Below are positions 20,208-20,367 of a stretch of DNA of 45,878 nucleotides, piece after piece. A program made the translations under genes and the position numbers. Numbering within the stretch: the first letter of the stretch is position 1; each line of letters opens with the position of its first letter. Location of the stretch: NCBI RefSeq assembly GCF_002633015.1, contig NZ_NSIU01000016.1:1-45878 (forward strand). The letters are read 5' to 3'. The notes beneath the pieces were generated by a model. The model did no database searches and had not been told where the DNA came from. It saw only the letters and a list, made by a program, of their open reading frames with translations. Source of the DNA: Sulfuricurvum sp. PD_MW2 (GTDB taxonomy: Bacteria; Campylobacterota; Campylobacteria; Campylobacterales; Sulfurimonadaceae).

Positions 20208-20239
20208 GAAATTCTCCAAGTAGAGGGGTTGAAATAAAA

Positions 20240-20252
20240 GACTAAATTAGTC
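20240..20252. promoter_or_regulatory. IscR type-1-like operator upstream of nifSU
   Basis: The 15-base inverted repeat AGACTAAATTAGTCT (20239-20253) contains GACTAAATTAGTC. This matches every position of the core of the E. coli type-1 IscR motif, GACT-R-WWW-Y-AGTC. It lies 33 bases before the nifS start, around or just downstream of weak -10 candidates (TATTAT at 20274-20269 on the minus strand). An Rrf2-family Fe-S sensor is the expected binder; the regulator is not in the window. Confidence 0.6.
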
Positions 20253-20367
20253 TTGTTTAGCTTTTGGGATAATAGTGCAAACGATGTTATAGTAACCTTA
20301 AGGGTTTTTTATATTTAGTAGTATTTAAGAATTCACTGAATTACTAAGATATTAGTTATGGTAGATT

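Follow-up and report, generated by a model that had tools for sequence, protein, structure and literature searches.

The window, by which we mean the whole 45,878-nucleotide stretch of DNA analyzed here, corresponds to contig C71 in a genome of 2.26 Mb whose closest named relatives are Sulfuricurvum. Just upstream of its nifS gene lies a perfect 7-1-7 palindrome, AGACTAAATTAGTCT (positions 20239-20253), which a preliminary description of the locus read as a perfect IscR type-1 operator. Two questions follow: whether the palindrome is a real regulatory site and, if it is, which protein reads it.

The palindrome and the nifSU promoter region

The downstream gene (18993..20207, minus strand) encodes a cysteine desulfurase of the epsilon type, scoring 738.9 bits against TIGR03403 (nifS_epsilon) with a cut-off of 587.7. 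The nifU gene, for a three-domain Fe-S scaffold, begins 13 nt after nifS (18005..18979, minus strand) and is assigned from its position and a TIGR02000 score of 216.5 bits, which is under the cut-off of 273.3. The genome contains no SufB or SufD, so the NIF pair is its general Fe-S assembly system, as the preliminary description had supposed. A second NifS-like gene, 63% identical and followed by a 104-aa ORF, lies elsewhere in this genome (G000:C66:40074-41237; 3069-4253 in L308) and is found in most of the genus; by inspection, no operator is present in the 200 nt upstream of this paralogue.

The nifS start codon is the ATG at 20207-20205 on the minus strand, which has a GGAG Shine-Dalgarno; the TTG at 20219 that the ORF tool took as the start is an in-frame codon upstream of this ATG. 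The ATG is separated by 31 nt from the 15-mer and by 32 nt from its core, so that the palindrome does sit just upstream of nifS, as described, and the earlier figure of 33 bases needs a small correction. The inner core GACTAAATTAGTC (20240-20252) agrees with the type-1 core motif GACTRWWWYAGTC at all positions, exactly as had been claimed, and the window contains one further perfect 7-1-7 palindrome besides AGACTAAATTAGTCT. Within the window, 0.027 matches to GACTRWWWYAGTC are expected and one, the core of AGACTAAATTAGTCT, is seen; over the 2.26-Mb genome, the figures are 1.35 and 2. The core match by itself is therefore only mildly unusual genome-wide, and we take the palindrome as real because it is conserved. 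An origin by chance, for which the expectation of ∼1.35 matches in a genome of this size would speak, is refuted by the conservation of the site across families and by the further copies at mrp, thiC-mrp, and suf (below), and we give it practically no weight. The genome's sole other perfect GACTRWWWYAGTC match (G000:C16:281-293, L006) lies 48 nt upstream of a PAS-domain gene; it was rejected as an operator and is probably due to chance, since relatives lend it no conservation support. All 13 of the one-mismatch core matches examined in the genome fall inside ORFs and were likewise dismissed as chance.

The palindrome is the center of a 25-bp symmetric element, AAACAAGACTAATTTAGTCTTTTAT in the minus-strand reading (20234..20258), which is defined by per-column conservation over 104 contexts and by a genome scan, in which it is the best 25-bp match of the genome with a single mismatch. 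The probable nifS -10 hexamer is TATTAT (20269..20274, minus strand), which is conserved in the genus at a constant spacing from the palindrome and is also visible in Sulfurimonas; a sigma-70 scan did not call this hexamer, and TATAAC (20286-20291) is an alternative -10 candidate. With transcription predicted to start near 20262, the operator would lie at about +9 to +23. The conserved CCTTAAGG (20296..20303) may be a -35-region element, given its conservation in the genus and the CTTAAG found in Sulfurimonas. Between nifS and the gene upstream of it, a strong inverted repeat, GATTTTTCCTATCT..AGATAGGAAAAATC, occupies 20365-20405. Judged by eye, it is likely a terminator that insulates nifSU from the preceding gene; a terminator scan returned no call there.

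Conservation of the element and its other targets

We sampled nifS upstream regions from the genus, from 80 named contigs, and from a phylum-wide panel; the panels overlap partly, and we therefore counted distinct contexts (n = 104). Clades are denoted f1 to f10, and the clade names used for f2, f3, f5, and f8 are our inferred assignments. Across the phylum, the conserved unit is the 25-bp symmetric block AAANARGAYWAAAWTWRTCYTNTTT, which most of the Campylobacterota sampled carry upstream of nifS and which Helicobacteraceae, Thiovulum, and Nautiliaceae-like genomes do not. A site found in ≤5% of dinucleotide shuffles is present in 117 of 118 upstream regions from f1, f3, f8, f9, f10, and named non-Helicobacter genomes (104 distinct contexts), and in the sole exception, L094, the site is located further upstream. 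The same shuffle criterion supports a nifS site in 1 of 28 regions from Helicobacter and the Helicobacteraceae-like clade f2, in none of 3 from Thiovulum, and in none of 5 from the Nautiliaceae-like clade f5. The detection score was built after the f1 and f3 nifS sites had been viewed, so their recovery is partly built in, and the suf and thiC-mrp results are fairer tests of the element. The score favors GA and TC in the arms and leaves the outer AAA/TTT unscored, so these outer triads provide independent support.

The arms of the palindrome covary over the 104 contexts: 63 have GAC..GTC and 23 have GAT..ATC, the remainder being mixed. The phylum consensus core is GAY-W...W-RTC, in which most lineages have A/T in place of the T4/A10 of the window; the flanks, AAACAA...TTTTAT in the window, have the consensus AAANAR...YTNTTT. 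Covarying arms and a predicted 7-bp stem with a triloop would also suit a hairpin in the 5′ leader RNA in place of a DNA operator. We rejected this reading as highly improbable, because positions 1/15 are A.C, which breaks an RNA pair, as often as G.T (21 vs 21), and because inspection of mrp and thiC-mrp puts the sites there ahead of the likely -10, outside the expected transcript.

A more serious alternative places the reader outside the Rrf2 family, with Fur and PerR as examples. The Campylobacter-like form, GGATAAAAATTATCC, contains GATAA..TTATC, which we take to resemble a pair of Fur half-sites, and nifS and other Fe-S genes are plausible Fur targets. However, the arms are GAC/GTC in most other lineages, where they make no Fur box, the f8 genomes contain both arm forms, and the site is absent from Helicobacter, although Helicobacter has Fur. 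Moreover, the core is identical to a footprinted site of RisR, an Rrf2 protein. We therefore consider a reader from outside the family unlikely.

The lineages that use SUF show where the element goes when the assembly machinery changes. SUF is present in four f8 genomes (genus g26, Arcobacter-like), in which no match to epsilon-type NifS was obtained, and in two f7 genomes, whose NifS matches are all distant. In all six, the element is found upstream of sufB (shuffle p 0.002-0.004), with two copies in four of the genomes, e.g., TTAAATAAGATAAATTTTATCTTATTT; two f4 genomes have weaker sites upstream of sufB (p 0.018). The placement of the element before sufB(CD) in SUF lineages indicates that the operator tracks the function of Fe-S assembly and not one gene. 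The exchange of NIF and SUF is in effect a natural experiment, in which the operator stayed with the function across two assembly machineries.

A scan with RGACWAWWWTWGTCY over 121 genomes of the family gave 178 sites, compared with 60 for the reversed control. Among the sites examined, most intergenic ones lie upstream of nifS or of mrp/ApbC, which encodes an Fe-S carrier with domains PF10609 and PF01883, and further sites precede genes for superoxide reductase (PF01880; 3 genomes) and a thiol-peroxidase-type redoxin, as well as trxA. In the studied genome, the superoxide reductase gene was rejected as a target because only a degenerate repeat with the wrong spacing is present. Comparison of mrp upstream regions showed the element in Sulfurimonas-type and Arcobacter-like genomes and did not confirm it in most Campylobacter-like genomes. 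In the Sulfuricurvum genome studied here, a search immediately upstream of mrp was negative; there mrp follows thiC, and the site heads thiC-mrp. This site (C23:19023-19047) is the second-best 25-bp match in the whole genome, with two mismatches against one for the nifS site, lies ∼210 nt upstream of thiC, and is present in all nine Sulfuricurvum compared. A divergent IspD-like gene probably starts at a position covered by this site, so coding constraint may account for part of its conservation. Like the mrp sites, the thiC-mrp site lies upstream of a likely -10 (by inspection), whereas the nifS site lies downstream of its probable -10. The same presence of the motif before other Fe-S genes, here mrp, thiC-mrp, and sufB, had been named as a check in the preliminary description. 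Judged by these sequence comparisons, the AGACTAAATTAGTCT palindrome is a real, conserved DNA switch before Fe-S assembly genes in much of the phylum.

Two further observations were made along the way. Between thiC and the IspD-like gene, ∼60 bp (TTACGAAATTATACAC..AAAAAGCTTTTTTTTATCTTGTTTGCGA; G000:C23 ∼18960-19050, L365 ∼1430-1530) are nearly invariant in nine Sulfuricurvum, and a similar stretch lies upstream of mrp in f10 genomes; this region is probably a divergent promoter with an additional conserved element, and an Rfam search returned no family at thiC or in the window. A 3-mismatch 25-bp match (G000:C3:28516-28540, L367) falls where a methyltransferase ORF ends, ∼90 nt upstream of a gene that by eye resembles one for a nitrogenase cofactor protein (NifE/NifN-like), and may be due to chance.

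A candidate reader of the Rrf2 family

The earlier proposal hinged on the genome encoding an Rrf2 protein and on relatives conserving the repeat. The repeat is conserved, and the genome has five Rrf2 genes (types A to E), of which only type C is general across the panel. Type C is the three-Cys Rrf2 protein that the proposal called for; its single-copy gene (contig C18, L003) adjoins rpsO and a FlhA-like gene. It belongs to the Rrf2 superfamily (PF02082, 100.8 bits vs a cut-off of 30; TIGR00738, 107.5 vs 73.3), and its AlphaFold model (mean pLDDT 92.1) has RsrR, CymR, IscR, and NsrR as the top solved folds. Among 36 sequences, C91 and C106 are invariant and C98 is conserved in ≥90%. As a natural variant, the type C protein of G172 (L173) has Tyr in place of the middle Cys, and this genome keeps its nifS operator.

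All 46 panel genomes outside f2 have type C, and all 25 f2 (Helicobacteraceae-like) genomes lack it, the protein of G159, which is interrupted by a stop, being counted by position and score only. The nifS operator is present in 30 and absent from 9 genomes with type C, vs 0 and 10 without it (Fisher p 1e-5, a value that ignores phylogeny and a co-occurrence that rests on few independent events). Several genomes have type C as their sole Rrf2 protein and keep the operator, e.g., G041, G056, G063, G153, G164, and G194, and two f2 genomes that encode different Rrf2 proteins have no operator. These distributions bear on whether another Rrf2 protein of the genome (type A, B, D, or E) could be the reader. 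Types B and E share the recognition helix YLEQ with IscR, and type D, like type C, has three Cys; nevertheless, types B and E are without the three Cys, and the operator persists where type C is the only Rrf2 protein, which makes such a reader quite unlikely. We conclude from sequence and distribution that type C is the likely reader of the 25-bp element. The region upstream of its own gene holds no clear operator, i.e., no sign of autoregulation.

If, as first proposed, this were a bona fide IscR type-1 operator with an IscR orthologue as its reader, the exact GACTRWWWYAGTC core seen here, in most Sulfuricurvum, and in some Sulfurovaceae would be accounted for. This label proved too specific. 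In most related lineages, the core departs from GACTRWWWYAGTC (T4/A10 swapped to A/T); the flanks read N-A-R and not S-Y-Y, so that those of the window do not match the type-1 flank consensus ATASYY...RRSTAT, which the literature confirms; and the GAC-N7-GTC core fits the RisR motif equally well. No Rrf2 protein of the genome reaches the 207.55-bit cut-off of the IscR equivalog TIGR02010: type C scores 54.9, and the highest score of the five, 79.4, belongs to a CymR-like protein that lacks the Cys triad. The recognition helix of type C is FLAK (invariant L40, A41, and K42 in its own numbering) vs YLEQ in IscR, which puts Ala and Lys in the E43-Q44 columns, so that the S40/E43/Q44 set of IscR is not conserved. 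The E. coli IscR type-1 site ATASYYGACTRWWWYAGTCRRSTAT does share with our element its 25-bp length, GAC-N7-GTC core, A/T outer triads, and a role in Fe-S feedback; it differs in the inner flanks and positions 4/10. On balance, an IscR orthologue acting here is very unlikely. In E. coli, where the roles of S40, E43, and Q44 have been described, the E43A substitution allows apo-IscR to bind type-1 sites (PMC5411485). The natural Ala in this column means that type C cannot use that residue to discriminate.

A proposed Fe-S feedback loop and its relation to known systems

The best explanation of these data, and one we hold to be probable, is that the palindrome is the operator of an Fe-S assembly feedback loop in which a cluster-bearing type C homodimer represses nifSU. 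The homodimer carrying an Fe-S cluster would occupy the 25-bp site, which immediately follows the probable nifS -10, and block nifSU transcription; when clusters are scarce or damaged, type C would lose its cluster and leave the DNA, and nifSU, plus thiC-mrp in this genome, would be derepressed. Both placements of the site, after the -10 at nifS and before it at mrp and thiC, suit repression by blocking of RNA polymerase. That the holo form represses and that cluster loss derepresses is presumed from the parallel to IscR and RisR; the identity of the reader, its cluster, and its DNA binding in the holo form are likewise predictions. In favor of this loop, the site is observed, symmetric, and conserved, it recurs upstream of mrp, thiC-mrp, and sufBCD, and it co-occurs with type C, so that the earlier idea of an Fe-S operator under Rrf2-family feedback appears sound. 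Against it, the co-occurrence could go back to one loss event in the Helicobacteraceae-like clade; the Nautiliaceae-like f5 and f6 possess type C without a site at nifS; one type C protein, that of G172, is without the middle Cys; the residues by which IscR contacts specific bases are not retained; and the type-C gene is without a site of its own.

The closest described match is RisR of Myxococcus xanthus, an Rrf2 protein of group IS6 that protects GAC-N7-GTC with A/T-rich flanks and whose holo form represses isc and suf (PMC9973013). RisR and type C are both three-Cys Rrf2 proteins linked to GAC-N7-GTC with A/T-rich flanks over the promoters of Fe-S assembly operons; this RisR-type operator is exact in the window and in 63 of 104 contexts, the others being mostly GAT/ATC or mixed. 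They differ in that risR lies inside the suf operon, whereas the type C gene lies by rpsO/flhA with nifSU as the main target, and in the positions of the Cys residues (92, 102, and 108 in RisR; 91, 98, and 106 in type C, respectively). For RisR, cluster and binding have been demonstrated; for type C, they are predicted from sequence. The main text of PMC9973013 mentions neither Campylobacter nor epsilon. The top equivalog family for type C is TIGR02944 (suf_reg_Xantho, a SUF Fe-S regulator) at 68.7 bits, under the cut-off of 110.65, so that by score type C is not a member. Its nearest solved structure by sequence and fold is RsrR from Streptomyces venezuelae (6hsd, 6y45), with a comparable helix (SYLAK/SFLAK) and ∼30% identity; unlike the role proposed for type C, RsrR is a redox sensor and is not described as a regulator of Fe-S assembly.

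Within the incomplete coverage of our literature search, no Rrf2 protein was linked to Fe-S assembly in Campylobacterota, and no transcriptional regulator was assigned to it. In C. jejuni, inactivation of iscS, nifU, and mrp failed, and these genes appear essential (PMC4257069). The C. jejuni Rrf2 gene Cj0883c is numbered beside flhA (Cj0882c) (PMC11202532), and from this position we expect it to be the type-C gene. Somewhat less firmly than for the loop at nifSU, we lean toward the broader reading that Fe-S assembly in much of the Campylobacterota is governed by a master regulator, a single-copy Rrf2 protein that is not IscR, is convergent with or related to RisR, has an operator that follows function across NIF and SUF, was lost in Helicobacteraceae, and switches by a route other than that of IscR (Ala at Glu43). 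The predicted regulon, with nifSU and thiC-mrp as expected targets here and the genes for superoxide reductase and tpx added in relatives, would span a phylum of sulfur-oxidizing and host-associated bacteria, with Helicobacter carrying out Fe-S assembly without type C. With one protein and one 25-bp site, Fe-S assembly in Campylobacter and its relatives would have a first regulator open to direct test.
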